Assembly (NCBI GenBank): GCA_033964015.1
Contig: CM066912.1
Span: 8,458,371-8,522,370, forward strand
Source of the DNA: Scolanthus callimorphus
Lineage: Eukaryota; Cnidaria; Anthozoa; Actiniaria; Edwardsiidae
Length of the DNA: 64,000 bases
Direction of reading: 5' to 3'
The notes under the pieces are model-generated. The model did no database searches. It saw only the letters and a program-made list of their open reading frames with translations, and had not been told where the DNA came from. Shown piece by piece: positions 1-42,200 of the stretch; position 1 is the first letter of the stretch; the number at the start of each line of letters is the position of its first letter. The position numbers were made by a program, and so were the translations under genes.

Positions 1-360
1 CCCTTCACGAGATATTGATTTTTCCAGCATAGATGACGTCATCGATTACGTCACATCACGTGACAACTTCATTTCGCTCATCTGGTGACCTAGACTACAC
101 TTCCCAAGTTTGGTTGTTTTAGAGTCTTCCTTTCATGAGATATTCATTTTTGAAGCATAGATGACGTCATCGATGACGTCACATCACGTGTCCGGGTTAC
201 AGCACCCCCCTTGTGGCATAGACAAAATATCCCAAGCATGGTTGTCTTAGCGTGTTCCCTTGAGGAGATATAATTTTTTCTTTGCATACCACAGGGTTCC
301 CATGTGTACACGGACGACGGACGGACGGACGGACGGACGGACGGCGTACGCTATAGGTTT
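1..360. repeat. Degenerate ~130-bp tandem repeat and GACG microsatellite
   Basis: Three degraded copies begin near 3, 131 and 257 (GAGATATTGATTTTT-like starts). Two carry TGACGTCA palindromes, which resemble cAMP-response elements but here belong to the repeat. A GGAC/GACG tract follows at about 305-345. Confidence 0.75.
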
Positions 361-1597: not shown

Positions 1598-2975
1598 ATC
1601 ACGTGCTTACCCTAGCCTCAAGAGCTTGCTGTATAGTTGAGATCACGTGCTTACCCTAGCCTCTAGCGCTTGCTGTATAGTTGAGATCACGTGCTTACCC
1701 TAGCCTCTAGCTCTTGCTGTATAGTTGAGATCACGTGCTTACCCGAGCCTCTAACGCTTGCTGTATAGTTGAGATCACGTGCTTACCCGAGCCTCTAGCG
1801 CTTGCTGTATAGTTGAGATCACGTGCTTACCCTAATCTCTAGCGCTTGCTGTATAGTTGAGATCACGTGCTTACCCTAACCTCTAGAGCTTGCTGTATAG
1901 TTGAGATCACGTGCTTACCCGAGCCTCTAGCGCTTGCTGTATAGTTGAGATCACGTGCTTACCCGAGCCTCTAGCGCTTGCTGTATAGTTGTGATCACGT
2001 GCTTACCCTAGCCTCTAGCGCTTGCTGTATAGTTGAGATCACGTGCTTACCCGAGCCTCAAGAGCTTGCTGTATAGTTGAGATCACGTGCTTACCCGAGC
2101 CTCTAGGGCTTGCTGTATAGTTGAGATCACGTGCTTACCCGAGCCTCTAGGGCTTGCTGTATAGTTGAGATCACGTGCTTACCCGAGCCTCTAGGGCTTG
2201 CTGTATAGTTGAGATCACGTGCTTACACTAGCCTCTAGCGCTTGCTGTATAGTTGAGATCACGTGCTTACCCGAGCCTCTAGAGCTTGCTGTATAGTTGA
2301 GATCACGTGCTTACCCTAGCCTCTAGAGCTTCCTGTATAGTTGAGATCACGTGCTTACCCGAGCCTCTAGCGCTTGCTGTATAGTTGAGATCACGTGCTT
2401 ACCCGAGCCTCTAGCGCTTGCTGTATAGTTGAGATCACGTGCTTACCCTAGCCTCTAGGGCTTGCTGTATAGTTGAGATCACGTGCTTACCCTAGCCTCT
2501 AGCGCTTGCTGTATAGTTGAGATCACGTGCTTACCCGAGCCTCTAGGGCTTGCTGTATAGTTGAGATCACGTGCTTACCCGAGCCTCTAGCGCTTGCTGT
2601 ATAGTTGAGATCACGTGCTTACCCTAGCCTCTAGAGCTTGCTGTATAGTTGAGATCACGTGCTTACCCTAGCCTCTAGCGCTTGCTGTATAGTTGAGATC
2701 ACGTGCTTACCCGAGCCTCTAGTGCTTGCTGTATAGTTGAGATCACGTGCTTACCCGAGCCTCTAGCGCTTGCTGTATAGTTGAGATCACGTGCTTACCC
2801 TAGCCTCTAGCGCTTGCTGTATAGTTGAGATCACGTGCTTACCCGAGCCTCTAGGGCTTGCTGTATAGTTGAGATCACGTGCTTACCCGAGCCTCTAGCG
2901 CTTGCTGTATAGTTGAGATCACGTGCTTACCCTAGCCTCTAGAGCTTGCTGTATAGTTGAGATCACGTGCTTACC
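1598..2975. repeat. 44-bp tandem array derived from the exon 28 junction, left block
   Basis: About 31 units with a 44-bp period. On the minus strand each unit carries the tail of DNAH1 exon 28 and its 5' splice site, GAGGCTAGG|GTAAGCACG. Variation is mostly single substitutions (CTAG or CGAG in the exon part, and the base before GCTTG). The block ends at the target-site duplication of the element at 2976-4994. Confidence 0.95.
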
Positions 2976-4994
2976 CTAGCCTGCTAGCAGGCGTTGGAGG
3001 CTGTTTTTATCGGCGAAAACCCGGAGTTCGTACTCGCGAGCGCCATCTTGGATTTTTGGGCCGAGTGACAATGGGGCGAGTGACAAAACGAGGGGGGGGG
3101 GGGCGGGAGAGAGGCGGAAAGAACGCCTGCAAGGAAACTATGCATTTTTGAGTAGCTAATTAAATTCCCGTCCACCAGCAGACGGGAATTATGATTGGCT
3201 AATCGGTCAATATGTCAATCATCTCCGAGCGTGTTGGGGTCACACATTCTGAAACGGAAACTCAACAAATAAATATAGCAGTCGATTCGGCAGAAGCAAG
3301 TAATTTCGCGTGCGCCTTCTTCGGTTCCAAGTCAAAAGAAATTGCTCGAGCTAGGAGCTGGCGATCAAAGGCCTGCTTGAAGGGCGAGATGGCAGTTTTT
3401 TGAGATGGCAGTTTTTCCGACTGGCTTCGGCAAAACTATGATTTTCACTGTGTTTTGTATCGCGAAGAGAGGAGTGATGGAAAGCGTCCCGCTTCGGTTT
3501 ATATAGTAATATATCTCTACTCAAAAGCCTAACTGCTGACCAAACGGATGAGATCGAATCTATCGAATGTACAATGAGGGATTTAACTGCGGAAATGTTT
3601 GAAGAAAACCCTCCTCAGCCTGGTTCTATCCGGCGTGATAGTTGTTGAAACATGCCGCTTGATTCTCATCACCGGCTTTTCTTCGCCACAGCGTCCTTCT
3701 TCTCCTCTCACACAGCGATCTCGATTACTTAAAATATCTGCGAGTGTGGCTTAGTTTCCTTCTGCAGGTTTTACTAAATACGAGACGAAATATTCACAGT
3801 GTTTTCGAGTTCAAAGGCTAGCGTTCTTGCACAACTCAGCGAGCGTATGCGAATCATTCTTTCCAACTTTATACCGGTCCCTGGATATTTGCGAAGTTTG
3901 TAATAAATCGCTTCTATATATATAAATAAAAAGAATGCCATAAACTTAAACGGTAAAATAATACTGTTGAAGAAAGTCTCTTTATACAGAAGAATTTATT
4001 TCGAAGTAAATTAACCGCAAACTCGCTGTAAAATGTGCATTATTTACGCACAACTTCGCACCTAAAACTGCACGCATCGTTGTTTCAAGCAACCTATCTT
4101 TTGTCGTTCTTGGTAGATTAGAGAAGTGTGATATGTAAGTTGATCGCCAGCTCCTAGCTCGAGCGATTTCTTTTGACTTAAGTAATGGTCCGTATAAGAA
4201 CTAGGCAAGCCAACGGCAAAGCATGCTGGAATGCAATTAATTTCTATTGAAAATATAGGCAATTTCATTGGCTTAGACATGAAAATCAGTAAATTCACTA
4301 TACTAGAAAGACTTGTCTGAGGATTTTTAGGGAGACATAAGCACTTGTGGTACTCACAAACAGGATATGCAATTTGTAAAGACTTTGTATGTGGGGAACC
4401 TAGCGTAAAATGCTGATTCTCACTCCTTTGTTCTTCTTTAATCTGATTGGTCTAGAGACTTTTCGTTGCCATATGTTCTCAAAGCAAGTCGAAATCTATC
4501 AATTTTTCACTCTTATTATGTTACTAGTCATGATAACTTACTGTGGTAAAAAAATAGGACATATCCTACGTGGGTAACCTTCAATGCCGTAGAACAATGG
4601 AGGTTTGCCTAGTTCTTGCATGGATGATTACTTAATAGAACCGAAGTAAGAAAGCGCTCGCGAAATTACTTGCTTCTGCCGAATCGACCGCTATATTTAT
4701 TTGTTGAGTTTCCGTTTGAGAATGTGTGACCCCAACACGCTCGGAGATGATTGACATATTGACCGATTAGCCAATCATAATTCCCGTCTGCTGGTGGACG
4801 GGAATTTAATTAGCGACTCAAAAATGCATAGTTTCCTTGCAGGCGTTCTTTCCGCCTCTCTCCCGCCCCCCACCCCCTCGTTTTGTCACTCGCCCCATTG
4901 TCACTCGGCCAAAAAATCCAAGATGGCGGCTCGCGAGTACGAACTCCGGGTTTTCGCCGATAAAAACAGCCTCCAACGCCTGCTAGCAGGCTAG
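2976..4994. mobile_element. 2.0-kb non-autonomous inverted-repeat DNA transposon inside the 44-bp array
   Basis: Both ends read CTAGCCTGCTAGCAGGCG inward, and the inverted repeat continues for about 350 bp (left to about 3325, right from about 4645). It is flanked by the 8-bp direct duplication TGCTTACC (2968-2975 and 4995-5002). A second inner inverted match lies around 3340-3370 and 4139-4175. No transposase frame is visible. An 8-bp duplication fits hAT or P-like elements, but the ends are not typical hAT. Related ends occur at 47560-47575 and 61815-61835. Confidence 0.85.
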
Positions 4995-7900
4995 TGCTTA
5001 CCCTAGCCTCTAGCGCTTGCTGTATAGTTGAGATCACGTGCTTACCCGAGCCTCTAGTGCTTGCTGTATAGTTGAGATCACGTGCTTACCCGAGCCTCTA
5101 GCGCTTGCTGTATAGTTGAGATCACGTGCTTACCCTAGCCTCTAGGGCTTGCTGTATAGTTGAGATCACGTGCTTACCCTAGCCTCTAGCGCTTGCTGTA
5201 TAGTTGAGATCACGTGCTTACCCTAGCCTCTAGCGCTTGCTGTATAGTTGAGATCACGTGCTTACCCGAGCCTCTAGGGCTTGCTGTATAGTTGAGATCA
5301 CGTGCTTACCCTAGCCTCTAGCGCTTGCTGTATAGTTGAGATCACGTGCTTACCCTAGCCTCTAGCGCTTGCTGTATAGTTGAGATCACGTGCTTACCCT
5401 AGCCTCTAGCGCTTGCTGTATAGTTGAGATCACGTGCTTACCCTAGCCTCTAGCGCTTGCTGTATAGTTGAGATCACGTGCTTACCCTAGCCTCTAGCGC
5501 TTGCTGTATAGTTGAGATCACGTGCTTACCCGAGCCTCTAGGGCTTGCTGTATAGTTGAGATCACGTGCTTAGCCGAGCCTCTAGAGCTTGCTGTATAGT
5601 TGAGATCACGTGCTTACCCGAGCCTCTAGCGCTTGCTGTATAGTTGAGATCACGTGCTTACCCTAGCCTCTAGCGCTTGCTGTATAGTTGAGATCACGTG
5701 CTTACCCTAGCCTCTAGCGCTTGCTGTATAGTTGAGATCACGTGCTTACCCTAGCCTCTAGCGCTTGCTGTATAGTTGAGATCACGTGCTTACCCGAGCC
5801 TCTAGGGCTTGCTGTATAGTTGAGATCACGTGCTTACCCGAGCCTCTAGAGCTTGCTGTATAGTTGAGATCACGTGCTTACCCTAGCCTCTAGGGCTTGC
5901 TGTATAGTTGAGATCACGTGCTTACCCTAGCCTCTAGGGCTTGCTGTATAGTTGAGATCACGTGCTTACCCGAGCCTCTAGGGCTTGCTGTATAGTTGAG
6001 ATCACGTGCTTACCCGAGCCTCTAGGGCTTGCTGTATAGTTGAGATCACGTGCTTACCCTAGCCTCTAGCGCTTGCTGTATAGTTGAGATCACGTGCTTA
6101 CCCGAGCCTCTAGAGCTTGCTGTATAGTTGAGATCACGTGCTTACCCTAGCCTCTAGAGCTTGCTGTATAGTTGAGATCACGTGCTTACCCGAGCCTCTA
6201 GCGCTTGCTGTATAGTTGAGATCACGTGCTTACCCTAGCCTCTAGCGCTTGCTGTATAGTTTAGATCACGTGCTTACCCTAGCCTCTAGCGCTTGCTGTA
6301 TAGTTGAGATCACGTGCTTACCCGAGCCTCTAGAGCTTGCTGTATAGTTGAGATCACGTGCTTACCCTAGCCTCTAGAGCTTGCTGTATAGTTGAGATCA
6401 CGTGCTTACCCTAGCCTCTAGCGCTTGCTGTATAGTTGAGATCACGTGCTTACCCGAGCCTCTAGCGCTTGCTGTATAGTTGAGATCACGTGCTTACCCG
6501 AGCCTCTAGCGCTTGCTGTATAGTTGAGATCACGTGCTTACCCGAGCCTCTAGCGCTTGCTGTATAGTTGAGATCACGTGCTTACCCGAGCCTCTAGCGC
6601 TTGCTGTATAGTTGAGATCACGTGCTTATCACGTGCTTACCCGAGCCTCTAGGGCTTGCTGTATAGTTGAGATCACGTGCTTACCCTAGCCTCTAGCGCT
6701 TGCTGTATAGTTGAGATCACGTGCTTACCCGAGCCTCTAGAGCTTGCTGTATAGTTGAGATCACGTGCTTACCCTAGTCTCTAGAGCTTGCTGTATAGTT
6801 GAGATCACGTGCTTACCCTAGCCTCTAGGGCTTGCTGTATAGTTGAGATCACGTGCTTACCCGAGCCTCTAGCGCTTGCTGTATAGTTGAGATCACGTGC
6901 TTACCCGAGCCTCTAGCGCTTGCTGTATAGTTGAGATCACGTGCTTACCCGAGCCTCTAGGGCTTGCTGTATAGTTGAGATCACGTGCTTACCCGAGCCT
7001 CTAGTGCTTGCTGTATAGTTGAGATCACGTGCTTACCCGAGGCTCTAGGGCTTGCTGTATAGTTGAGATCACGTGCTTACCCGAGCCTCTAGTGCTTGCT
7101 GTATAGTTGAGATCACGTGCTTACCCGAGCCTCTAGGGCTTGCTGTATAGTTGAGATCACGTGCTTACCCGAGCCTCTAGGGCTTGCTGTATAGTTGAGA
7201 TCACGTGCTTACCCTAGCCTCTAGAGCTTGCTGTATAGTTGAGATCACGTGCTTACCCTAGCCTCTAGCGCTTGCTGTATAGTTGAGATCACGTGCTTAC
7301 CCGAGCCTCTAGGGCTTGCTGTATAGTTGAGATCACGTGCTTACCCTAGCCTCTAGGGCTTGCTGTATAGTTGAGATCACGTGCTTACCCGAGCCTCTAG
7401 GGCTTGCTGTATAGTTGAGATCACGTGCTTACCCGAGCCTCTAGTGCTTGCTGTATAGTTGAGATCACGTGCTTACCCGAGCCTCTAGGGCTTGCTGTAT
7501 AGTTGAGATCACGTGCTTACCCTAGCCTCTAGCGCTTGCTGTATAGTTGAGATCACGTGCTTACCCGAGCCTCTAGGGCTTGCTGTATAGTTGAGATCAC
7601 GTGCTTACCCGAGCCTCTAGCGCTTGCTGTATAGTTGAGATCACGTGCTTACCCTAGCCTCTAGAGCTTGCTGTATAGTTGAGATCACGTGCTTACCCTA
7701 GCCTCTAGCGCTTGCTGTATAGTTGAGATCACGTGCTTACCCGAGCCTCTAGTGCTTGCTGTATAGTTGAGATCACGTGCTTACCCGAACCTCTAGCGCT
7801 TGCTGTATAGTTGAGATCACGTGCTTACCCTAGCCTCTAGGGCTTGCTGTATAGTTGAGATCACGTGCTTACCCTAGCCTCTAGCGCTTGCTGTATAGTT

Positions 7901-9182
7901 GAGATCACGTGCTTACCCTAGCCTCTAGCGCTTGCTGTATAGTTGAGATCACGTGCTTACCCGAGCCTCTAGGGCTTGCTGTATAGTTGAGATCACGTGC
8001 TTACCCTAGCCTCTAGCGCTTGCTGTATAGTTGAGATCACGTGCTTACCCTAGCCTCTAGCGCTTGCTGTATAGTTGAGATCACGTGCTTACCCTAGCCT
8101 CTAGCGCTTGCTGTATAGTTGAGATCACGTGCTTACCCGAGCCTCTAGCGCTTGCTGTATAGTTGAGATCACGTGCTTACCCTAGCCTCTAGCGCTTGCT
8201 GTATAGTTGAGATCACGTGCTTACCCTAGCCTCTAGCGCTTGCTGTATAGTTGAGATCACGTGCTTACCCGAGCCTCTAGGGCTTGCTGTATAGTTGAGA
8301 TCACGTGCTTACCCGAGCCTCTAGAGCTTGCTGTATAGTTGAGATCACGTGCTTACCCGAGCCTCTAGCGCTTGCTGTATAGTTGAGATCACGTGCTTAC
8401 CCTAGCCTCTAGCGCTTGCTGTATAGTTGAGATCACGTGCTTACCCTAGCCTCTAGCGCTTGCTGTATAGTTGAGATCACGTGCTTACCCTAGCCTCTAG
8501 CGCTTGCTGTATAGTTGAGATCACGTGCTTACCCGAGCCTCTAGGGCTTGCTGTATAGTTGAGATCACGTGCTTACCCGAGCCTCTAGAGCTTGCTGTAT
8601 AGTTGAGATCACGTGCTTACCCTAGCCTCTAGGGCTTGCTGTATAGTTGAGATCACGTGCTTACCCTAGCCTCTAGGGCTTGCTGTATAGTTGAGATCAC
8701 GTGCTTACCCGAGCCTCTAGGGCTTGCTGTATAGTTGAGATCACGTGCTTACCCTAGCCTCTAGGGCTTGCTGTATAGTTGAGATCACGTGCTTACCCTA
8801 GCCTCTAGCGCTTGCTGTATAGTTAAGATCACGTGCTTACCCGAGCCTCTAGCGCTTGCTGTATAGTTGAGATCACGTGCTTACCCGAGCCTCTAGCGCT
8901 TGCTGTATAGTTGAGATCACGTGCTTACCCTAGCCTCTAGGGCTTGCTGTATAGTTGAGATCACGTGCTTACCCTAGCCTCAAGAGCTTGCTGTATAGTT
9001 GAGATCACGTGCTTACCCGAGCCTCTAGGGCTTGCTGTATAGTTGAGATCACGTGCTTACCCGAGCCTCTAGCGCTTGCTGTATAGTTGAGATCACGTGC
9101 TTACCCGAGCCTCTAGTGCTTGCTGTATAGTTGAGATCACGTGCTTACCCTAGCCTCTAGCGCTTGCTGTATAGTTGAGATC
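4995..9182. repeat. 44-bp tandem array derived from the exon 28 junction, right block
   Basis: About 95 units that run without a break into the true exon 28, whose donor is at 9148. The unit holds 34 bp of coding sequence and 10 bp of intron. The GTAAGC donor core is kept in nearly all units; one exception is near 5572. A small internal duplication near 6625 disturbs the period. Confidence 0.96.
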
Positions 9183-9254
9183 TGCTGCGCGACCACAGAC
9201 AACACTTCAACGTCGATACGGTTGAACTCATCGAAACACGCCCACGCGCCCGCA
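9149..9254 (-). CDS. DNAH1: DNAH1 exon 28: AAA1 Walker B; seed of the 44-bp array
   Basis: About residues 1579-1614: [20 protein letters not shown] then [20 protein letters not shown] is the Walker B motif that activates water for ATP hydrolysis. The acceptor is TTGTTCCTAG and the donor AGG|GTAAGC. Its last 34 bp plus 10 bp of intron are the unit of the 44-bp array. The next dynein exon is not in the window. Confidence 0.95.
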
Positions 9255-12200
9255 CTAGGAACAAATTATATAAAAATAATAATAAAGGACATTTATATAG
9301 AGCGGTTTTCACATGACTGTCGTGAAAACAATTGCAATTGAGCAATAACTAGCCAATCAGAATCGAGATAAATCATGACTTGCTCCTAAATGGCTTTTTT
9401 CTTAGCCAATTGCAAGCCGAACCAATTACTAAGTAATTACACAATTGTATTTACTACAGAATTTGATTGGCTGAGAAAAATGAGTAGCCAATGAGAACGC
9501 AAAGCAATCGCAATTACATAACAAGTCTTGACAGTCATGTGAAATCCGCTCTAGTGCAGTATGCACTATTCAAAATGACTATGTCATCGTCGGGAAAGAC
9601 TTGGTGACAGCCATAAGCGCCTGCGCGGATTTCAATAGAAAGGAACACTGCATCAACCAGCAACCAGCGTTACAAGAGGCGAAACGGGCACTTGACGACA
9701 TATCGCCATGCTACTTGTGCTCAACAGCGTCAAATAAGGCCCTTACGATTGAAGATGGAAGCATGGACAAAAATCGGGGATATGAGAGCACGATTCAGGG
9801 CTTGAAATTGCGCCCGATACAGGCATAAATACGTCTACACAATTTCCTTTTACGCTTACCATTTTAGACTTATTATGTTTTTAGTTTCTACAGTGTTCTC
9901 CTAGTGGATTTACGCCTACATTTTGATGAATTACACGCCCTGCCGATTTCGCGTTCTTTTTTTCGTGCACGTCTGTCCGTCTCGTCGTTTCTAAATCGCT
10001 AACATAGATGCAGCGCGCGCGATAACTGCACTTTAAAGTCCTTAATTCTCCATAATCCCGCCACCATTCACAGGAATTTCTACAGAAAGTTGAATTTCCA
10101 ACGGTAGAAGAATGACGATCCATGTGAATTCCGAACACTTCCCATGCGTTTACCTTGGGAAAGTCAGATTTTCCCATGGATGGGTTTCTGCAGAAATTCC
10201 CTGTGATTATAGCTGGAATCATCCATTTGTAGAACATTAAGCCTTACCTGGCTAAACCTTTGAAAAATTTCCCCATCGCCATGAAGTCGAGTTGATCAGA
10301 ACAGTTGAAAACCACGCACTGGACAGCCATAGCTTTACCTAAATCCTGCATAATAAGAGAGAAGCCACGTCAGCTTGAGCTTATGAATAAAGCACTTGAC
10401 AAGGAAACTTGACCGCGTCGTTGAGCAACAAATATTTGCCGTAAGTGATCTGTTTTTAAACGCCAAGATGATTGCTCATCAGCAGACATACACAACACAA
10501 ACAAGGAATAATTGTCAAGGAACAATCGCTCATGTAGACAGAGGCCGTCATCATCTTGGTCGCAGTACCCGTGAGTGCATATGGGGCTTGGGAACTAATG
10601 ACGACGTCATGAAATCTTGTCAGTTTTTCTTTGAGCCTACTCTTGACAATATTTCAAAGATAAATATCTGCAGATAAGCCATGCCATCACATTGACAAAA
10701 CATTGATGAGAAAAACACGTAAGTATGGTGAAACATGTAGCACGCGAGTGTCACTAACGAGTAGCGGTACAAAAAAAAGGACCATATTTGGAAAAGGATG
10801 AATGTCGCGCGAGTCGCGGCAATATTTCTCGCACGTACGCGTCAACTCAAATCACTAATGTAAAGTAATGCCACTCGGCGCGACCGACCGCAATTTTTGT
10901 CGCGTGATGTCCGAAACTCTTTACAACTTGATGCGATTTGAAGAAGAGAGAGCACAGAAATCGCACCGCATTTGCATCTCGTTTACACTAGAGAGTTGGA
11001 ACTGCAACTCGGGCGACAAAAATCGCCGCGACAAATGCAAAAATCGCAAGTGTAAACCGGCCTTTAAAGGCTGGTTTCCATATAGTCTTATCTGTCGTGT
11101 GAAAAAAAATCTCTATATGGAAATGACTCGTAAGACAGTCCAATACGACAGATACCACGGTCGTATCACTGTCGCATGAGATAGAAAAGACAGATAAGAC
11201 AGTCGTTAAGTCTAGTTTCCATAAATCTGTCGTATCAGTCAACCGTGAAACAAAAGAATAATTCCAATTTTCATTGTTTCACGGTCGACTGATGCGACAG
11301 ATACGACAGATACGACTATATGGAAACCAGCCTTAAGGCAACATTTTTTTAATGGAAAGCATCACGTACGACGATGTGACTGGTACGACATAATATATCC
11401 CATAAATGCACTTCTTTGTTTTCAACATGGCGGCGAACGGGAAAGCAGAAGCGACAGATACGACATGTGGAAAGAGACTGTCGCATGAGTCTTACGCGAG
11501 TCGCACCAGTCGTATGTACACTGTGGGGGGGGGGGGGGGGGGGGCTGGTCTCATGAGACAGATACGGCAGATAAGACTTTATGGAAAACAGGCTTTACGC
11601 ACAACAATGAAACCCAGCAGCCGTTCAAAACGGCAGATATAACTTATACCTTTGTCGTCTCCGTCTTGCCAGTGCCAGCAGGCCCCGCCGGAGCGCCACC
11701 AAACTTGAGATGCAGAGCTCCCGTGAGTGTTAAGTAACAACGGTCGGTTAGAGGGGTGATCACTAGTCTGCCCGTATTACCGAGGTATTCGTAGCCATAG
11801 TCAAACTGGGCGTTCACTGCACGGATAACCATGTTATCCTCTTCCCAATAGTATCTACGATAGTATAATAACACGTGATAAGCATAAACTACTCGTAGCC
11901 ATAGTCAAACTGGGCGTTCACTGCACGGATAACCATGTTATCCTCTTCCCAATAGTATCTATGATAGTATAATAACACGTGATAAGCATAAACTATTCGT
12001 AGCCATAGTCAAACTGGGCGTTCACTGCACGGATAACCATGTTATCGTCTTCCCAATAGTATCTACGATAGTATAATAACACGTGATAAGCATAAACTAC
12101 TCGTAGTCATAGTCAAACTGGGCGTTCACTGCACGGATAACCATGTTATCGTCTTCCCAATAGTATCTACGATAGTATAATAACACGTGATAAGCATAAA

Positions 12201-15200
12201 CTACTCGTAGTCATAGTCAAACTGGGCGTTCACTGCACGGATAACCATGTTATCGTCTTCCCAGTAGTATCTATGATAGTATAATAACACGTGATAAGCA
12301 TAAACTACTCGTAGCCATAGTCAAACTGGGCGTTCACTGCACGGATAACCATGTTATCCTCTTCCCAATAGTATCTACGATAGTATAATAACACGTGATA
12401 AGCATAAACTATTCGTAGCCATAGTCAAACTGGGCGTTCACTGCACGGATAACCATGTTATCCTCTTCCCAGTAGTATCTACGATAGTATAATCATAACA
12501 GGTGATGAGTAAAACTATTTTTTTTTTCGAAGAAGGTTAGGATGGATCCCTGTGGTGATCCTATCCACAGGTGTCCCATAAGTACTTTTGTGCTGTATCA
12601 CTACTGCCTCTGAAAGCAACTGAGGAAAAAGTTGGCTGATTTCCGCAGCGGGGGTCGAAGACCATGGAAAAATTCCAGGGGGAAGGGTCTATCTAAGCCC
12701 TGGAAATTCTAAGGGACGGGGGTCTATCTGGACTCTGGAAATTTCTAGGGGGAGCCGTCGAGGACCCCTGAAAATCCTGGAAATTCCAGGGGGGTCTAAG
12801 CTGTGGGAAAGAGGGTGTTTAGGCAACCTAGAAATTCCAAGGGATGGGGTGTTCAAATTCCAGAGGAGGGGGGTGTTAGGCCCTCCTCTGGAATTGGGGG
12901 GTGTGGAAGACCTCTAGAAATTCCAGGGAAGGGGGGTCATCAAATGGTAAGGTCCTCGACCCTGCGTTGTGGAAAAAAATTCGATCAGCCGTTTCGAAGG
13001 ACCTTTGCAGTTAAAGTACACGAGCCATAGCCGTAAGGGTATTGTTTGCTTCTGTTGTCCATATGGTAACGAATTCTGTGCGCTGATTGGTTCTTAGAGC
13101 GTGCGCGTTCTGCCCCGAATTCCCTATTTCTCACCATGCTGACCTCCACTGGTAGTTTTTATATTTTTTTATATTTCCACCCTAGCGCATAAATGCTGGG
13201 AGGCTTGTATGAAGTTTGTGATGTAGTCCGGCCCCTTTTTATCTACCTGAGTTGGCTGATCCATTCAAAGTCATTCGCGGACTTGACGCCTTCCGTGTTC
13301 ATCTTTGCGATCACATCACAAGCGTGCACCTGGAAAAACAACACGGACAACATCACTCTCAACCAGAACAACAGAACAACAACGGCAGCAACAACAACAG
13401 CAGCAAAAACAGCAACAACAACAGCAACAGCTGTAACAGCATTAGCAACAGCCGCAGCAACAACAACAGCAACAAGAACAACAGCAACAGCTGTAACGGC
13501 AACAACAACAGCAGCAGCAACAGCAGCGACAACAGCAGCAAGAACAGCAGCAGCAGTACAAACAGCAACAGCAACAACAACAGCAACAATAACAACAGCA
13601 ACAGCTGTAACAGCATTAGCAACAGCAGCAGCAACAACAACAGCAATAGGAACAACAGCAACAGCTGTAACGGCAACAACAACAGCAGCAGCAGCAACAG
13701 CAGCAACAACAGCAGCAAGAACAGCAGCAGCAACAGCAGCAACAGTACAAACAGCAACAGCAACAACAACAGCAGCTCAAACAGCAACAGCAACAATAAC
13801 AACAGCAACAGCTGTAACAGCATTAGCAACAGCAGCAGCAACAACAACAGCAATAGGAACAACAGCAACAGCTGTAACGGCAACAACAACAGCAGCAGCA
13901 GCAGCAACAACAGCAGCAAGAACAGCAGCAGCAACAGCAGCAGCAGTACAAACAGCAACAGCAACAGCAACAACAACAGCAGCAGTAACAACAGCAATTT
14001 TATTTGCGCTTTCAAAGTCCTAGAATAACGGCGGAAAGGTAATCGAGCAAGGGCATCATTTAGAATCCCCCCCCTTTTTTCCACTCCACCTTTTTCCCAC
14101 TCCCCCACCACCAACCCCTTTGTCTTGTTTTATTGGCTGGGGTTCCTGGACGTGTCTTACCTCAATAACAATAAGAGCACCAAGAATGAGCCTGGCTAAT
14201 TTACTGAGGTCTCCCCTCACCAACGTCACAAGGCCACTAAGCTGAAAAGGTGAACAGAATAATCAAGGCAATGATCTGTTAGACAGTATCAACAGTACTG
14301 TGGCCTTCGCGGCGAAAGCAAGTATTGCGCGCCAGAGATACATTGGACTTACTTCCAGGAGTGATACAGCTTCTCGGAAGATCTTGTGTGATTCGAGAGG
14401 CAGAACAAAGCATCCCATTGTTTCCTCGTTCTATTGTATGACCCTCTATGGGCTAAGATCTTACAAGAGCTGTATCATGCCCCTTGTTTTTAAAGTCATT
14501 CCCTTAGGATATAGATAAAAAGCGAACGATGCGAGCTGAAATGAGTCACGACGTGAGCTTTTAAACCACGCGAAGAGGAGGGACTCGGCAAAAGTCTAGG
14601 ACGCAACAACACTATAAGAGACGCCGAGAGACGCCGAGAGACGGCAAGAGACAGCAAGAAACGCCGAGATGCCGAGAGACGCCGAGAGACGCCAAGAGAT
14701 GCCGAGAGACGCCAAGAGATGCCAAGAGACGCCAAGAGACTATGTCTTGGGAAACATTCCTTACTGTTTCCCTTGGGAGAAGTCACAAGGGGCTCTTCAC
14801 ATGATTTCGGAATGACTTTCATTCTGGAATGAGATCATTTCATACCCGTAAGACTTCTATATATGATACCTGAACGAAAATTTGCTCCTGTGTAGGCTAT
14901 TCCGGAATGAGTTCAATCCGGTTTTTAATCGGAATGAAAACCTCGTCCCTATGAAGTTTCATTCTGGAATCATGTGAACTGAGATCGAACTTCGTTCTGG
15001 GATGGAAATCACAAACCGTGAAGTCTGGAGCGAGTGGCGCATGCGTGAATGCGAACACTTACGGGCGCCCTGTGTGTTTTTTTATTTGGCGCCAAAACCT
15101 GGAACTGATTGCCCACGCCATGTGAATGTAGTACGAACTTCATTCCGAAATGAAACTGGTTCTGGAATGAAACTCATTCCAGAGTCATGCAAAGAGGCCC

Positions 15201-30200: not shown

Positions 30201-33200
30201 TGCTTTACGCAGAGTATTCCTTAGATTGTCTGTACGATGGGATATCTACATACCGTGGGATAGACCTCTAGTGCTTTACGTAGAGTATCTCTTAGACTGT
30301 CTGTACGATGTGATATCTACATACCGTGGGATAGACTCTAGTGCTTTACACAGAGTATCCCTTAGACTGTCTGTACGATGTGATATCTACATACCGTGGG
30401 ATAGACCTCCAGTGCTTTACGTAGAGTATCCCTTAGACTGTCTGTACGATGTGATATCTACATACCGTGGGATAGACCTCCAGTGCTTTACGTAGAGTAT
30501 CCCTTAGACTGCCTGTACGATGCGATATCTACATACCGTGGGATAGACCTCTAGTGCTTTACGCAGAGTATCCCTTAGACTGTTTGTATGATGGGATATC
30601 TACATACCGTGGTAGTGCTTTACGCAGAGTATCCCTTAGACTGTCTGTACGATGTGATATCTACATACCGTGGGATAGACCTGTAGTGCTTTACACAGAG
30701 TATCTCTTAGACTGCCTGTACGATGTGATATCTACATACCGTGGGATAGACCTCTAGTGCTTTACGTAGAGTATTCCTTAGACTGTTTGTATGATGTGAT
30801 ATCTACATACCGTGGGATAGACCTCCAGTGCTTTACGTAGAGTATCTCTTAGACTGCCTGTACGATGTGATATCTACATACCGTGGGTTAGACCTCCAGT
30901 GCTTTACGTAGAGTATCCCTTAGATTGTCTGTACGATGTGATATCTACATACCGTGGGATAGACCTCTAGTGCTTTACGTAGAGTATCCCTTAGACTGTC
31001 TGTACGATGTGATATCTACATACCGTGGGATAGACCTCTAGTGCTTTACGTAGAGTATCTCTTAGACTGCCTGTACGATGTGATATCTACATACCGTGGG
31101 ATAGACCTCTAGTGCTTTACGTAGAGTATCCCTTAGACTGTCTGTACGATGTGATATCTACATACCGTGGGATAGACCTCCAGTGCTTTACGTAGAGTAT
31201 CTCTTAGACTGTCTGTACGATGTGATATCTACATACCGTGGGATAGACCTCTAGTGCTTTACGTAGAGTATCCCTTAGACTGTCTGTACGATGTGATATC
31301 TACATACCGTGGGATAGACCTCTAGTGCTTTACGTAGAGTATCTCTAGACTGTCTGTACGATGTGATATCTACATACCGTGGGATAGACCTCCAGTGCTT
31401 TACGCAGAGTATCCCTTAGACTGTCTGTACGATGTGATATCTACATACCGTGGGATAGACCTCCAGTGCTTTACGTAGAGTATCCCTTAGACTGTCTGTA
31501 CGATGTGATATCTACATACCGTGGGATAGACCTCCAGTGCTTTACACAGAGTATCCCTTAGACTGTCTGTACGATGTGATATCTACATACCGTGGGATAG
31601 ACCTCTAGTGCTTTACGTAGAGTATCTCTTAGACTGTCTGTACGATGTGATATCTACATACCGTGGGATAGACCTCCAGTGCTTTACGTAGAGTATCCCT
31701 TAGATTGTCTGTACGATGTGATATCTACATACCGTGGGATAGACCTCCAGTGCTTTACGTAGACTATCCCTTAGACTGTCTGTACGATGTGATATCTACA
31801 TACCGTGGGATAGACCTCCAGTGCTTTACGTAGACTATCCTTAGACTGTCTGTACGATGTGATATCTACATACCGTGGGATAGACCTCTAGTGCTTTACG
31901 TAGAGTATCTCTTAGACTGTCTGTACGATGTGATATCTACATACCGTGGGATAGACCTCTAGTGCTTTACGTAGAGTATCTCTTAGACTGTCTGTACGAT
32001 GTGATATCTACATACCGTGGGATAGACCTCTAGTGCTTTACGTAGAGTATCTCTTAGACTGCCTGTACGATGTGATATCTACATACCGTGGGATAGACCT
32101 CTAGTGCTTTACGTAGAGTATCTCTTAGACTGTCTGTACGATGTGATATCTACATACCGTGGGATAGACCTCCAGTGCTTTACGTAGAGTATCCCTTAGA
32201 CTGTCTGTACGATGTGATATCTACATACCGTGGGATAGACCTCCAGTGCTTTACGTAGACTATCCCTTAGACTGTCTGTACGATGTGATATCTACATACC
32301 GTGGGATAGACCTCTAGTGCTTTACGTAGAGTATCTCTTAGACTGTCTGTACGATGTGATATCTACATACCGTGGGATAGACCTCTAGTGCTTTACGTAG
32401 AGTATCTCTTAGACTGTCTGTACGATGTGATATCTACATACCGTGGGATAGACCTCTAGTGCTTTACGTAGAGTATCTCTTAGACTGTCTGTACGATGTG
32501 ATATCTACATACCGTGGGATAGACCTCTAGTGCTTTACGTAGAGTATCCTTAGACTGCATGTACGATGTGATATCTACATACCGTGGGATAGACCTCTAG
32601 TGCTTTACGCAGAGTATCCCTTAGACTGTCTGTACGATGTGATATCTACATACCGTGGGATAGACCTCTAGTGCTTTACGCAGAGTATCCCTTAGACTGT
32701 CTGTACGATGGGATATCTACATACCGTGGGATAGACCACTAGTGCTTTACGTAGAGTATCCTATAGACTGCCTGTACGATGTGATATCTACATACCGTGG
32801 GATAGACCTCTAGTGCTTTACGCAGAGTATCCCTTAGACTGTCTGTACGATGTGATATCTACATACCGTGGGATAGACCTCTAGTGCTTTACGCAGAGTA
32901 TCCCTTAGACTGCCTGTACGATGTGATATCTACATACCGTGGGATAGACCTCTAGTGCTTTACGCAGAGTATCCCTTAGACTGCCTGTACGATGTGATAT
33001 CTACATACCGTGGGATAGACCTCTAGTGCTTTACGTAGAGTATCTCTTAGACTGTCTGTACGATGTGATATCTACATACCGTGGGATAGACCTCCAGTGC
33101 TTTACACAGAGTATCCCTTAGACTGTCTGTACGATGTGATATCTACATACCGTGGGATAGACCTCTAGTGCTTTACGTAGAGTATCTCTTAGACTGTCTG

Positions 33201-36200
33201 TACGATGTGATATCTACATACCGTGGGATAGACCTCCAGTGCTTTACGTAGAGTATCTCTTAGACTGTCTGTACGATGTGATATCTACATACCGTGGGAT
33301 AGACCTCTAGTGCTTTACGTAGAGTATCTCTTAGACTGTCTGTACGATGTGATATCTACATACCGTGGGATAGACCTCTAGTGCTTTACGTAGAGTATCT
33401 CTTAGACTGTCTGTACGATGTGATATCTACATACCGTGGGATAGACCTCTAGTGCTTTACGTAGAGTATCTCTTAGACTGTCTGTACGATGTGATATCTA
33501 CATACCGTGGGATAGACCTCTAGTGCTTTACGTAGAGTATCTCTTAGACTGTCTGTACGATGTGATATCTACATACCGTGGGATAGACCTCCAGTGCTTT
33601 ACGTAGAGTATCGCTTAGACTGTCTGTACGATGTGATATCTACATACCGTGGGATAGACCTCTAGTGCTTTACGTAGAGTATCTCTTAGACTGTCTGTAC
33701 GATGCGATATCTACATACCGTGGGATAGACCTCTAGTGCTTTACGTAGAGTATCCCTTAGACTGTCTGTACGATGTGATATCTACATACCGTGGGATAGA
33801 CCTCTAGTGCTTTACGTAGAGTATCTCTTAGACTGTCTGTACGATGTGATATCTACATACCGTGGGATAGACCTCCAGTGCTTTACGTAGAGTATCTCTT
33901 AGACTGTCTGTACGATGGGATATCTACATACCGTGGGATAGACCTCTAGTGCTTTACGTAGAGTATCTCTTAGACTGTCTGTACGATGTGATATCTACAT
34001 ACCGTGGGATAGACCTCCAGTGCTTTACGTAGAGTATCTCTTAGACTGTCTGTACGATGGGATATCTACATACCGTGGGATAGACCTCTAGTGCTTTACG
34101 TAGAGTATCTCTTAGACTGTCTGTACGATGTGATATCTACATACCGTGGGATAGACCTGCAGTGCTTTACGCAGAGTATCCCTTAGATTGTCTGTACGAT
34201 GTGATATCTACATACCGTGGGATAGACCTCCAGTGCATTGTGTAGAGTATCCCTTAGATTGTCTGTACGATGTGATATCTACATACCGTGGGATAGACCT
34301 CCAGTGCTTTACGTAGAGTATCCCTTAGACTGTCTGTACGATGTGATATCTACATACCGTGGGATAGACCTCCAGTGCTTTACGTAGAGTATCCCTTAGA
34401 CTATCTGTACGATGCGATATCTACATACCGTGGGATAGACCTCTAGTGCTTTACGTAGAGTATCCCTTAGATTGTCTGTACGATGTGATATCTACATACC
34501 GTGGGATAGACCTCTAGTGCTTTACGTAGAGTATCCCTTAGACTGTCTGTACGATGCGATATCTACATACCGTGGGATAGGCCTCCAGTGCTTTACGTAG
34601 AGTATCCCTTAGACTATCTGTACGGTGTGATATCTACATACCGTGGGATAGGCCTCCAGTGCTTTACGTAGAGTATCCCTTAGACTGTCTGTACGATGTG
34701 ATATCTACATACCGTGGGATAGACCTCTAGTGCTTTACGTAGAGTATCTCTTAGACTGTTTGTACGATGTGATATCTACATAGACCTCTAGTGCTTTACG
34801 TAGAGTATCTCTTAGACTGCCTGTACGATGTGATATCTACATACCGTGGGTTAGACCTCCAATGCTTTACGTAGAGTATCCCTTAGACTGCCTGTACGAT
34901 GTGATATCTACATACCGTGGGATAGACCTCTAGTGCTTTACGCAGAGTATCCCTTAGATTGTCTGTACGATGTGATATCTACATACCGTGGGATAGACCT
35001 CCAGTGCATTGTGTAGAGTATCCCTTAGATTGTCTGTACGATGTGATATCTACATACCGTGGGATAGACCTCCAGTGCTTTACGTAGAGTATCCCTTAGA
35101 CTATCTGTACGATGTGATATCTACATACCGTGGGATAGACCTCTAGTGCTTTACGTAGAGTATCTCTTAGATTGTCTGTACGATGTGACATCTACATACC
35201 GTGGGATAGACCTCTATTGCTTTACGCAGAGTATGCCTTAGACTGTCTGTACGATGTGATATCTACATACCGTGGGATAGACCTCTAGTGCTCTACGTAG
35301 AGTATTCCTCAGACTGCCTGTACGATGGGATATCTACATACCGTGGATAGACCTCTAGTGCTTTACGCAGAGTATTCCTTAGATTGTCTGTACGATGGGA
35401 TATCTACATACCGTGGGATAGACCTCTAGTGCTCTACGTAGAGTATCCCTTAGACTGTCTGTACGATGTGATATCTACATACCGTGGGATAGACCTCTAT
35501 TGCTTTACGCAGAGTATGCCTTAGACTGTCTGTACGATGTGATATCTACATACCGTGGGATAGACCTCTAGTGCTTTACGTAGAGTATCCCTTAGACTGT
35601 CTGTACGATGCGATATCTACATACCGTGGGATAGGCCTCCAGTGCTTTACGTAGAGTATCCCTTAGATTGTCTGTACGATGTGATATCTACATACCGTGG
35701 GATAGACCTCTAGTGCTTTACGTAGAGTATCTCTTAGACTGTCTGTACGATGTGATATCTACATACCGTGGGATAGACCTCCAGTGCTTTACGTAGAGTA
35801 TCTCTTAGACTGCCTGTACGATGTGATATCTACATACCGTGGGATAGACCTCTAGTGCTTTACGTAGAGTATCCCTTAGACTGTCTGTACGATGTGATAT
35901 CTACATACCGTGGGATAGACCTCTAGTGCTTTACGTAGAGTATCCCTTAGACTGTCTGTACGATGTGATATCTACATACCGTGGGATAGACCTCCAGTGC
36001 TTTACACAGAGTATCCCTTAGACTGTCTGTACGATGCGATATCTACATAGACCTCTAGTGCTTTACGTAGAGTATCTCTTAGACTGCCTGTACGATGCGA
36101 TATCTACATACCGTAGGATAGGCCTCTAGTGCTCTACGTAGAGTATCCCTCAGACTGCCTGTACGATGTGATATCTACATACCGTGGTAGTGCTTTACGC

Positions 36201-39200
36201 AGAGTATCCCTTAGACTGTCTGTACGATGCGATATCTACATAGACCTCTAGTGCTTTACGTAGAGTATCTCTTAGACTGTCTGTACGATGGGATATCTAC
36301 ATACCGTGGGATAGACCTCTAGTGCTTTACGCAGAGTATTCCTTAGATTGTCTGTACGATGTGATATCTACATACCGGGATAGACCTCTAGTGCTTTACG
36401 TAGAGTATCTCTTAGACTGTCTGTACGATGTGATATCTACATACCGTGGGATAGACCTCCAGTGCTTTACGCAGAGTATCTCTTAGATTGTCTGTACGAT
36501 GTGATATCTACATACCGTGGGATAGACCTCCAGTGCTTTACGTAGAGTATCTCTTAGATTGTCTGTACGATGTGATATCTACATACCGTGGGATAGACCT
36601 CCAGTGCTTTACGCAGAGTATCTCTTAGACTGTTCTTCATGGTGTTTTCCACCTCCAGTAACCAGTCTTCAACGTTACCAGTCGGGTACAAATTGGTGGA
36701 GAATGCAACATTCTCGCCTTCACCGGAGAACATGGAAGAAATACGCAGGTCCTCTTCGAATGACAACTGAGATATAGAAAGAAAAGAAAGTCAAGTTGAA
36801 GCTCAATAAAGGGGCACTCGCACGCTTTCCAGACAAGCAAAAAATTATAATCCAATTCCGTCCTCTTGATAACAGATAAAAATACTATAGATTTGTATCG
36901 ATTTAAAAACAAACCTGGTCTGTTGTTTGGTTATTATCGGTAAACTGAAATGTATTTTTGGTAATTAGAATTAGAATTATTTTGTTGACCAATCTTTCAT
37001 TGACAACTTCACCGTGTAGTCGGGCAACAAATATTTGCCGTAAGTGGTCTGTTTTTAAGCGTCAACGATGATTTTGTCATAGACATACGCGCGTCTACAC
37101 GGTAAAGTTTCCTTGTCAAGGACAAATTGCTCGTGTACAGGGCGTTATCCATATGCCGCATTTGGTGGAAATAATTCAGATTCATAGGGAAAGGCAAACC
37201 TCCCTGGACACCTTACTTGAAGTAATAAAATATAGTCCCCTTCTTTTCACTCAGGGTTCGCACGTTTGTTAGCAAATAAAATATCATAAACTTCCTTGAA
37301 AACTCCTGGAATTCGGAAAGTTTATGGGCGTACAAACCCTACTTAAAGCGTGAATTCGTCTATACCCTTTTTTATAAGAACCTTTTTATAACGTTCGGCA
37401 AGAAGTTTACCCAAATTTTAAGAACATGCCCGAGGCTCGGATGGGCTCGGATAGGAGCAAAATAATGTAATGCGTGTTATTATATCAACACCAATGAAAT
37501 ACCGGGTGATCTCCCGCGCGAAAACTTGATATCTTCACACGTGAAAATATCACACTTGCCTTTGCTGAATGCTCGATTTTTAAGCTTTACTCAAATAAAA
37601 TTTGAATATGGCATTTCATTGATGTTTATATAATAAACAGGGACTCACTCGTGAGATAAATTTTCGACCCTCGAAGATAAAATTCGTATCCCCGCGTGGC
37701 CATGTAATATCCTCTATATATGGTGAACTGAGTGCTGATACAAGCATATCCTGCTATGTCTAATAATAATAATAATGTCCATCATGTCTATCACATGTTT
37801 ATCATGTTTCAGGTTGCGAAGTCACTGAAATTTAAGAACATCCGTAAGAACATTTTCAGTCTCAAACTGCTCCATAAATAAGAACGGCCCAGCCTCAACT
37901 GAAAATTAGACGTTCTATTAATAAAGTGTATACGAAAACCGAAAAATACGAAAATAGTCCTCCTTACCCTGGCAATGTTCTCGAAGCACTTCCGGAGATG
38001 TGGTTGGACAGCAGTTGGGTCTTTAGTCTGCGACAGAATCTCCAACAACTCATCATCGGACAGGAAGTAGAACCGCGGGAACGCAGTGCGCTTGGTCTCT
38101 AGATATTCACTAAGACCTTTCTGGACTTGTTCGAGGAGTTTGTTACACTCACGGAGGCTCTCCAGTAATCTCGGGTCGGGGCACAGGGAGATCACCTAGG
38201 CAAGGGTATTGCAGTAATAGAATGTTAATGAAATCAACTGTGTGCCTTGGAATAATTCATTCCATAAGGCGCACACCCTACTAAGAGTCAGGTAACCCAA
38301 CACGAACTCTAGGAAAAACCTATCGCTCTTCAAAACAAGACTACCATGCATGTATGGCATTCCCTGTACTTCGCAATGATCCTTGTGGTATGCGATCCGC
38401 TTCACAATTTTTTGGCTCTATACTCTGTCACCAACGGGGTCAAGGAAGGCAAAGAAAACCTCTCTAACCTGTGGGTTACTCTTGGCAGAGTTCATGACCT
38501 TTCTCCAGATCCTCTCCATGGTCTGGTACCTCTTGCTCTCCACTGGCAGCTGTCGGTTGATGTCCTCAGAGCTGAAAATGGGCTCGAGGTAGAGCCAGTT
38601 ACGCTGACACTGCAACCATTCATCCATCACATCCTAGGAATGACACAACTCAAATGAATATAGAATCGTCATAGCGCGAATTTCACATGACTGTAGTGTT
38701 CAAAACCAATCGCAAAGTAATTACACCAATTCTGAATAAAACCTATAGGAGTAATTACAAAGCAATTGGGAATTACTCTCGACAGTCATCTGAAATCCGC
38801 TCTATCATCGCCAGCCGTTTACACAATTCGAACATGGTATAAAAGATAAAATAAGTTATTTACGCCTCTTGCAGTGCAAGCACTGAATAGGCCATTTGCA
38901 CTGACTGGGTCACGTGACCCAAATCCCATACATTCTGAATAAAATCTTGAAAATTCAACTCGCTGCCATTTGCTCCAGGTTAGACATTTTAAGCTGAAAC
39001 TTGAGTTTCTGACTAATATCGGTTAGTTCTTTGTATTTCTGGAATTGGTTTTGACAAAACATCTCGTTAAGAAGTAGTTGGGGTCACGTGACCCAGTTAG
39101 TGTAAGTGGCCTATTGCAGGCGGTGGTATCGCCATTAGATCGCTGGTGAAATCACACCTCAAATCGCAACATTTTGAGGACTCCTCAGAACGCGCTCTTA

Positions 39201-42200
39201 CCTGTGTCATGACGAGTTTGCCCTCCCAAGTGTTGATGCGATCCTCGAATGGCTTCTTGAATGGCGAGAAGGACATGCTTTGCGTCATGACGATGTGATC
39301 GTCAAGCAGCTGAGAGCAGTCGTCGCTGACTTTCATGATAAACGTACCAGTTTCCTTGTATGGCAAGACCTCGAGGAGCAAAGGCTTCCATTCACTCTCC
39401 ATCTTATCTAGGCCTGTGGTGCAAAACAAGACTGGGTGTAAATACAAACTGCAAAACGAACTGCAAAACACCTATTGAAACGCAAGAAACATTTATGTAT
39501 CAAATCAAATTTTCCTGTCTTTTGCATTTGTCCTCCACACATACAGACCTATTCAACGGAGTATTCTTTGTCGGGAATATCTCTCAATCGACAATGGGAC
39601 AGAACAAAACGGATGTAAAATTATCCAGGATGTTTTACCCTTGGGCTCGTTTTTTGAAAAACCTTAGCATAATGCTGACTCCGAAAAGTGTTGCCTATAA
39701 AAAAATTAGTTAGGCTTCTCCGGAATAGGCCATTCGCAGCTGATCAGTCATGTGCTTGTTATATCGCTAGGAGCCTTGATGTCTTGTCTCATTAAATTAT
39801 TATTTTCTTTTATACTCACTCAAGTTCAAAGACAAAAGATAATTTCATGAGAGTAAGGCAACAAGGGCCAAAAAGTCACCATTTGGGAAAAAGGAATATG
39901 GACGTCAGGATTTCCAAGAGAGGGTCAAGCAATGACTGAGGGCAAACAAACGTTTTAGCTGACTTTAAATTGAACTGATAACGTGGCATATTCGAAGGTA
40001 ATTGACCAAATTGTTTATAAGCACTTTTTGATAATAACTCTAAGCGATTGGTAACTCTCGAAAGTAGTAATTATGTAAAGTACCTTGGTGTCTTAATTGA
40101 TAGCAATTTAAACTGGAAGAATCATATTAACCATGTTACATTGAAAATTAGTAAAACTGTAGGTATCATCTCTAGATAAGGCACACAGTACCACTAAGCG
40201 TTTTGATGAGCCTTTACAGGTCGTTAATTCTACCTTACCTCTCTTACGGTATTGTTGCTTGGGGGCGTGCTGCTAATAAGTACATAAATAAACTACTTGT
40301 TCTTCAAAAAACGGCTTTGAGACTAATGCATTTTGCGCATAGACAGCAACACGCAATTCCCCTTTTCCTGGCAACTGATTTTTTGCCTATTCACATGATT
40401 TATTTTAAAAAGACGGCATGTCTTATGCACGACATCTCAAACAATACCGCCCCAGTTTTAATACAAAATCTATTTACCAAATCCCATGATGTGCATAACT
40501 ACAACACGCGATCTGCTTCTAGTGGAAATTTTCAGATTCAGTCTTCTAGACTTGAATTACAAAAAATTGTCATTTTCTCGATCCGGTCCTGTTCTATGGA
40601 ATTCTTTGCCAGTAAATTTGCGCAATCAAACTAAGAAAACCTTCAAAAATGATTTACATGTCTTGCTTACAAAACTATTTTTATCGGAGGATATGTATAT
40701 TGGTGTCCAGGATATCGTTTCAAAAATACAGAAAATGAGATAAATTATTTAATAATATTAACAAAATACAATTACTGAAAAAAAAAATGAAAAGAAAAAG
40801 AAAGAGAAAGGAAAGAATTGATAAATTTAGGTAGATAAGACGAAAGAGACGAAATACGAGAGGAATAATGTAATAATATGATCTGTTATTATTATTTTTT
40901 TTCTCCAGCTTCCCGCCCCGATTAGCTTTATGCTATTTGCGGGTTGACTGATTACTATATTATATGTTTTATATTGGAAATAATAAAATATTGTATTATT
41001 GTAGCACGTCAAAATATTACAGATCAGATACGTTTCATTTTTTTTTTTTTTGCTCTTCAGCCACGTGACAGACGAACTGCAAAAGGTCTATTAAAACGCC
41101 AGAAAAAAGTATGTATCACATTTTCCTGACTTTTACCCTAGTCGTCCACACCCACACACATCTCCCCATACAGACCTGTTCAGCCAAGTACTCTTTGCCG
41201 GCACTATCTCGAATCGACACTTATCAACATCACACATCTCTCCATACAGACCTGTTCAATGGAGTACTCTTTGCCGGCACTATCTCGAATCGACACTTAT
41301 CAACATCACACATCTCCCCATACTGACCTCTTCAGCCAAGTACTCTTTGCCGGCACTATCTCGAATCGACACTTATCAACATCACACATCTCCCCATACT
41401 GACCTGTTCAATGGAGTACTCTTTGCCAGCAATCTCTCCAATCTTAGCAATCACATCAATGTGTTCTGTAGACCCATGTCCAGGCATTTTGTGAAGGTGA
41501 GCTGGGCATTGGCGACCACAGGGAAACCAAGGTCCTTGGAGAGCTGTGAAAAATGTTGAGAGTTAGTACGTCGCTCGATGACACCGGTGTAACCATTCTT
41601 GACAAAAGGTCCACCATGCAAACGATTGGTAAAGTCACCTCTCACTATTTTCACCGAGGAATTTACCGCGAAGATTAAACGTGCGAAGTTAAACATGCTT
41701 GTAACTCCCAAGGGTAATCAGTAGTTTATTTGCGAGCAGCCACGTCAGTCTTTCTTGCCTATATAAAGGATTTCTGACATGAATTCAGGTCTTTTCGACA
41801 CATCTTCGCAAACCGGTAAGTCCTAAAATCTTTTCTCCCATACGTTTTGCCAGCGCTACGTCGCCGAAGCCTCTAGGCGGTCTTATTTTGCCTTATGTGT
41901 GGGTTCTTATGTCTATGTCTTTTAAGCGTGGTTCTACAGAGCGTTAAACTTCGAACATACTCCAACAGTGCATGCAATATTATTATTCTCGTATTCTCGC
42001 GCTTGTTATTTTCGCTCTGACTCCTCTCTCTTTAGTTTTAGGTCAGTTTGATGAGCATGTGGATCATTATCTGGAAGCTTTAGCGGCAGCACCAGCTCCT
42101 GGTGAAGCTGCCGCCGTTGCTCCACAAAACCTTCCACCGGTAGAGAATAATAACGAGGTAATTTCGTTCATGGACTTCGCCCTCGTATTTTAGCCCGTTT

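Follow-up and report, generated by a model that had tools for sequence, protein, structure and literature searches.

Minisatellite arrays spanning splice junctions in the DNAH1 gene of a sea anemone

The inspection of a 64,000-nucleotide stretch of the Scolanthus callimorphus genome (C2:8458371-8522370, hereafter the window) concerned the gene for axonemal dynein heavy chain 1 (DNAH1), the ortholog of which lies on the minus strand and harbors four tandem arrays detected with Tandem Repeats Finder (TRF). In all four, the repeat unit spans a real splice junction, which is the 5' splice site for the 76, 71, and 44 bp units and the 3' splice site for the 104 bp unit, and the authentic copy is the exon-proximal one when the minus strand is read. 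TRF and this reading thus bear out a preliminary description of the same DNA, which had reported four such junctions. We consider the arrays very probably to be minisatellites of the "mirage" type, in which a local duplication straddling the junction was followed by expansion and the extra copies were tolerated as intron. This kind of repeat is already known; what is new is the phylum and the scale.

The concatenated exon translations matched PDB chain 9d2f_U, Dynein axonemal heavy chain 1 (E=0, 1515.7 bits), and the top three PDB sequences were all DNAH1 with 1508-1516 bits, followed by DHC2 with 908 bits. Across the window and the adjacent stretch examined (C2:8398371-8458370), 48 coding blocks were mapped by tblastn and two more were read by eye, the 3' end of the gene lying outside the sequence examined. 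The genome searched comprises 597 Mb in 302 contigs, and no second copy of the DNAH1 locus was seen among its AAA_6 matches.

All gene features of the window given below lie on its minus strand. In the order of transcription, the coding block ending KEYSIEQ (41404..41457) has its last exon base at 41404 and the donor GTCAGT from 41403, and the 76 bp array (41155..41443, 3.8 copies) spans this 5' splice site with the junction ...CATTGAACAG/GTCAGT at 41404/41403. The next coding block bearing an array (36587..36766) is followed by the donor GTATGT from 36586, and here the 71 bp array extends over 20.6 kb (16000..36633, 292.1 copies by TRF) with the junction ...TATCCCACG/GTATGT at 36587/36586. 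Farther downstream, a coding block recognized by reading and similarity (VHACDVIAK...FEWISQL, 13243..13330, ends approximate) terminates at CTCAG/GTAGAT and precedes the 104 bp array (11789..12493, 6.8 copies), the unit of which spans a 3' splice site, TATCGTAG/ATACTATTGG at 11855/11854, with the last intron base at 11855. The authentic exon adjoining this array is the AAA1 coding block ...TGKTETTK (11650..11854; AAA_6 match C2:8470017-8470169). Another AAA1 coding block, ...IQQALEAR (9149..9250; AAA_6 match C2:8467510-8467653), carries the donor GTAAGC from 9148, and the first block of the 44 bp array (4994..9182; 95 copies by TRF, 94 read) shows the junction ...GAGGCTAGG/GTAAGC at 9149/9148. 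The second 44 bp block (1598..2988; 31.6 copies by TRF, 31 read) is separated from the first by an insertion of ~2 kb without assigned strand (2976..4994, ends approximate), which has near-perfect inverted ends (66 nt at 100%, 281 nt at 98%; arms at 2976-3321 and 4648-4994). The two blocks are one array of ~126 copies, split by this insertion.

The preliminary description had also regarded the arrays as independent events of one kind, and this view is supported. The same gene has four more cases, all of them outside the window. A 30 bp array of 74 copies (C2:8450030-8452251), a 99 bp array of 5.4 copies (C2:8425559-8426097), and a 17 bp duplication of 2.4 copies (C2:8420457-8420496) are located at donors, and a 51 bp duplication of 2.1 copies (C2:8418610-8418713) lies across a 3' splice site. 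DNAH1 thereby holds eight duplications that span a junction, of which six lie at donors and two at acceptors, among its 48 mapped coding blocks and the two more read by eye. The division of the unit into exon and intron parts is 47 + 24 nt for the 71 bp array, 33 + 11 nt for the 44 bp array, and 23 + 7 nt for the 30 bp array; the copies read for these arrays number 292 (116 distinct sequences), 94 + 31, and 74, respectively.

We also sampled eleven other dynein loci, as three 40 kb stretches and eight short ones. Among these paralogs, a 23 bp unit is present twice across a donor on C3, and a 393 bp unit twice across an acceptor in locus L054 on C12. The latter duplication (99% TRF match, sense 1546-2330) carries the 3' splice site with part of the conserved AAA1 exon and is a recent event in a dynein gene other than DNAH1. 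Additionally, several arrays start at or next to intron position +1 without including an exon part, namely 30 bp x54, 117 bp x3, and 25 bp x2 on C11, 41 bp x2 on C13, and 18 bp x4.8 in L054. Altogether, TRF listed 75 arrays with a period of at least 15 in the 12 dynein loci.

The coding sequence can be followed across each of the four junctions in the window. The exon joins that follow the 76 bp array (query 866/867) and the 71 bp array (query 1127/1128) both fall inside a single DNAH1 block of ungapped length (query 759-1163, chain 1040-1443). For the 104 bp array, the preceding exon closes with ...SQL plus AG, and the authentic acceptor gives R-YYWEED in frame. For the 44 bp array, the paralogs on C11 and C13 continue with the next block, VERFLFEG, after gaps of 3 nt and 9 nt, respectively. 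The periods of the 76, 71, 104, and 44 bp arrays leave remainders of 1, 2, 2, and 2 when divided by three. Reading through in the exon frame reaches a stop shortly past the donor in all six donor arrays of the gene (76, 71, 44, 30, 99, and 17 bp), within ~50 nt at most for the 76, 71, and 44 bp arrays, the first-copy frame of the 76 bp array ending at 41356. The uninterrupted protein, together with the stops met in frame past the donors, would fit regular splicing that the arrays leave undisturbed.

The units themselves appear to be private to their junctions. For the 71 bp unit, a 36-base pattern allowing up to 3 mismatches produced 276 matches genome-wide and 276 in the window. In a joint query with all four units, which skipped very common words and scored only the best candidates so that its counts are lower bounds, the 44, 104, and 76 bp units gave at least 67 genome matches, and 67 of the 67 reported lay within C2:8459968-8499813; the 71 bp unit went unreported in this query because very common words were skipped. 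None of the four units was found outside DNAH1, as far as these searches reach, and the units are unrelated to one another, each occurring only at its own junction within the same reach. An origin from one pre-existing satellite, which the preliminary description had named among the results that would overturn a shared mechanism, is contradicted for these four units to that extent. A tandem repeat of 127-128 bp, which in several places shows the core ...ATGACGTCATCGATGACGTCAT..., occurs at window positions 1-278 (from C2:8458096) and in the C3, C11, and C13 stretches, and looks like a dispersed minisatellite family recurring across dynein loci.

The variation among copies gave some indication of how the arrays may have grown. 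Runs of identical consecutive copies at long lag exceeded the maximum reached in 50 shuffles for the 71 bp array (7 vs 5), the first 44 bp block (9 vs 7), and the 30 bp array (13 vs 6), and no excess was seen in the second 44 bp block (4 vs 4). The mixing of variants together with long-range identical blocks is consistent with growth by block duplication or unequal exchange. A gradient of mutation along the arrays was ruled out, as the identity by lag is flat and near copies are no more alike than far ones. By eye, the ends of the 71 bp array share ~8 nt, and those of the 44 and 30 bp arrays 3 nt. A stronger constraint on the intron part of the unit was discarded: the frequency difference in the 71 bp array (0.045 vs 0.011) is due to a few common variants and disappears in three of the four sets when variants are counted once (p=0.78, 0.31, 0.046, 1.0).

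Under the mirage-type reading, each array would have started as a short local tandem duplication whose two ends flanked a splice junction and perhaps coincided with short stretches of shared bases, and would have expanded through further block duplication or unequal exchange. Splicing would keep the exon-proximal copy, leaving all extra copies, including their exon-derived part, within the intron; the duplication would be harmless for this reason, and the copy number would be free to climb, here to 292. The starting duplications might be commoner at 5' splice sites than elsewhere, as suggested by the positions at which arrays begin.

These positions were examined by counting the arrays whose start, in sense orientation, fell between -60 and +30 relative to a called donor. 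The donors were called by score (102 sites on 179 exon blocks), a procedure that overlooked the L054 donor at which the 18 bp array lies and makes the counts rough; the second 44 bp block was removed as belonging to the same array, as were called sites inside copies of the 104 bp array. With the 102 called donors, 11 of 75 arrays started near a donor (3.03 expected, p=1.9e-4), and outside the window 8 of 61 (2.56 expected, p=0.0037). When two donors were added by hand at places where arrays had already been read, the figures rose to 13/75 (3.07 expected, p=9e-6), 10/61 outside the window (2.6 expected, p=2e-4), and 6/40 in the paralogs (1.89 expected, p=0.01). Seven of the 13 donor-near starts lie upstream of the donor, four within 3 bases of it, and two at +18 and +29. 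Outside the window, the flanking bins showed no excess (1 vs 2.55 for +31..+121; 0 vs 2.67 for -151..-61). No excess was found at acceptors outside the window either (3/61, 4.09 expected), in a weak test that assigned the 104 bp exon an acceptor in the wrong copy and placed the 393 bp unit beyond its limit, both cases thus being missed; with the two added, the count was 5/75 (4.82 expected), still without excess.

The overlap with exons was evaluated in four loci by comparing arrays that touch a mapped exon ±10 bp with the random placement of one unit. The array filter dropped three arrays (71 bp, 51 bp, and, owing to its limit on the period, 17 bp) and treated the second 44 bp block as separate. 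In DNAH1, 5 of 22 arrays overlapped exons (2.38 expected, p=0.08), rising to 5 of 9 among those with at least 3 copies (1.04 expected, p=0.0017, window included), and over all loci the latter class gave 5/16 (2.29 expected, p=0.066). No excess was seen in the paralogs (1/15, 2.6 expected) or outside the window (3/26, 3.81 expected).

Several points weigh against our account and its suggested preference for donors. Over all four loci and all arrays, the exon overlap was 6/37 with 4.99 expected (p=0.38), and the donor starts in the paralogs alone, with called donors only, were 4/40 with 1.86 expected (p=0.11). The donor-start statistic is itself post hoc, being designed after the arrays had been read. 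Around 20 unseen dynein donors, for which a hand estimate made beforehand gave ~0.46 arrays by chance and 1.9 under enrichment, there were three arrays within the limits set for period and copy number, one of them starting near a donor (21 bp x8 in L072, ~12 bases past). By reading, none of 20 myosin exons, with 400 bases on each side, had an array across the donor or starting at it. Moreover, the use of the exon-proximal copy is judged from position and protein continuity and may be taken as probable on those grounds, and the origin and instability of the arrays are reconstructed from one haplotype and one species' locus. Among the loci of these two samples, an imperfect two-copy duplication unlisted by TRF lies at +1 in L070, and a 23 bp x2.3 array ends at the start of the exon match in the myosin locus L048.

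The strongest competing explanation combines chance and tolerance, with duplications arising at any place in a gene rich in arrays and surviving, where they happen to catch a junction, in the intron, so that no boundary mechanism is needed; to us, its chances are about even. The 75 arrays in the dynein loci do depict an array-rich region, and the overall exon overlap, the myosin exons, and the acceptors (4.1 expected for the 3 of 61 observed) conform to this view. Tolerance, however, only removes events, yet donor starts outside the window are about three times the expected number while the bins on either side of them show none of this surplus, and the DNAH1 arrays with at least 3 copies overlap exons well beyond expectation. 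Tolerance alone cannot concentrate starts at donors, and hence a mutational process tied to the donor would be needed if the excess survives a genome-wide test with annotation. Such a process (e.g., polymerase pausing, R-loop formation, or breakage at the edge of the exon) may make 5' splice sites hot spots for duplication at or just upstream of +1, a proposal we advance tentatively and regard as rather doubtful. The arrays that start at about +1 without an exon part (30 bp on C11, 41 bp on C13, 18 bp on C12) would then represent this same event, displaced at its end by a few bases. Of the two possibilities raised by the preliminary description, a mechanism bound to the boundary is suggested by the enrichment of donor starts and opposed by the lack of an acceptor excess, the exon overlap that is not significant over all loci, and the post hoc choice of statistic; the other, a locus prone to slippage, is a possible alternative.

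A gain of introns through tandem duplication of exonic sequence containing AGGT (the Rogers model), by which the arrays would be new introns, is highly unlikely. The units do carry splice signals, and by tblastn the matching point is passed with a gap of 3-9 nt in C11 and C3 for the 71 bp site and in C11 and C13 for the 44 bp site; these small gaps imply that the two introns are not common to all dyneins. Ancient paralogs may, however, differ in intron positions anyway. Furthermore, the 3' part of the unit is intron sequence that does not recur at the start of the next exon, and the arrays end in unrelated intron; the 71 bp array stops ~600 bp short of the next coding block mapped. Arrays whose unit continues into intron that already existed do not fit this model. 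We find it equally improbable that selection keeps the arrays as decoy splice sites or splicing enhancers. The GT is kept in 286/292, 93/94, 31/31, and 73/74 copies, slightly above the dinucleotide mean, but other dinucleotides are nearly as well kept (means 0.93-0.95), and in three of the four sets the intron part shows, by distinct variants, no greater constancy than the exon part. Least credible of all is the seeding of every array by one pre-existing satellite or mobile element, to which the 2 kb inverted-ended insertion in one array and the 127-128 bp repeats dispersed over several loci might point, against the mutually unrelated units of 71, 44, 104, and 76 bp that are found, as far as the searches reach, only in this gene and the authentic copy of each being coding sequence.

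Other features were observed in the window and elsewhere in the assembly. An interrupted CAA/CAG-type array of 0.6 kb occupies window positions 13369-13997, within the intron that separates the 13.3 kb coding block from the one at 14.2 kb, and the open frames at 40176-40743 on the plus strand are, as we take them, similar to the end of a reverse transcriptase of the long interspersed nuclear element type. At the end of the 44 Mb contig C1, three COX1 copies lie 16,446 bases apart (L029-L031, C1:44074334-44108563) and yield a 528-residue protein with genetic code 4; they represent either a mitochondrial genome joined in tandem to a nuclear contig by an assembly error, or a nuclear insertion. 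Among the best 120 of 7999 matches to this protein, the named relatives that rank highest are the sea anemones Galatheanthemum (95%) and Exaiptasia (96%), ahead of Zoanthus (92%), and amphioxus as the host is rejected by this comparison.

The occurrence of boundary-spanning minisatellites in a cnidarian means that they are no peculiarity of cephalochordates, and a long and conserved gene is seen to bear one of its own donors in hundreds of copies. The size and number of the arrays point to the starts of introns as a possible trouble spot, and an annotated genome would make it testable whether splice junctions are hot spots of tandem duplication that feed the growth and gain of introns. Among the open-licence papers listed by the literature searches, none looked like a cnidarian or sea anemone case, as judged by titles and abstract openings.

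The closest known counterparts are the amphioxus mirages, described as minisatellite-like repeats over the 5' or 3' exon–intron boundary of Adh3, troponin C, the globins BflGb6 and BflGb9, and PGBD5 (PMC3087553, PMC3902484). The class, for which the preliminary description knew no name, thus has one, and boundary repeats have been described in human as well (PMC2812944). In amphioxus, many mirage copies carry splice signals, splicing is reported as apparently regular, and the length as unstable at some loci, with units of 10-72 bp in Adh3, 150-160 bp in the globins, and 60 and 108 bp in PGBD5 (PMC3087553, PMC3902484). The four window arrays resemble them in their head-to-tail units spanning the boundary and in their minisatellite length (44-104 bp). 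They differ in their host, which by COX1 is a sea anemone and not a chordate, in the eight cases found in one gene, in being known here from genome sequence alone, and in reaching 292 copies and 20.6 kb, compared with the 6 and 3 copies given for two BflGb6 haplotypes. In human segmental duplications, variable internal tandem repeats at exon–intron boundaries can be spliced out and average 30 bp x4; these belong to recent primate paralogs and are defined by variation between paralogs, whereas the present arrays are far larger and reside in a conserved gene (PMC2812944). In the classical model of intron gain, the duplicated exonic segment provides both ends of the new intron (PMC4974935). The cases cited there (Hellsten; potato RdRp) share with DNAH1 a tandem duplication with splice signals inside a gene, but the 3' part of the DNAH1 unit is existing intron that does not lead into the next exon (PMC4974935).

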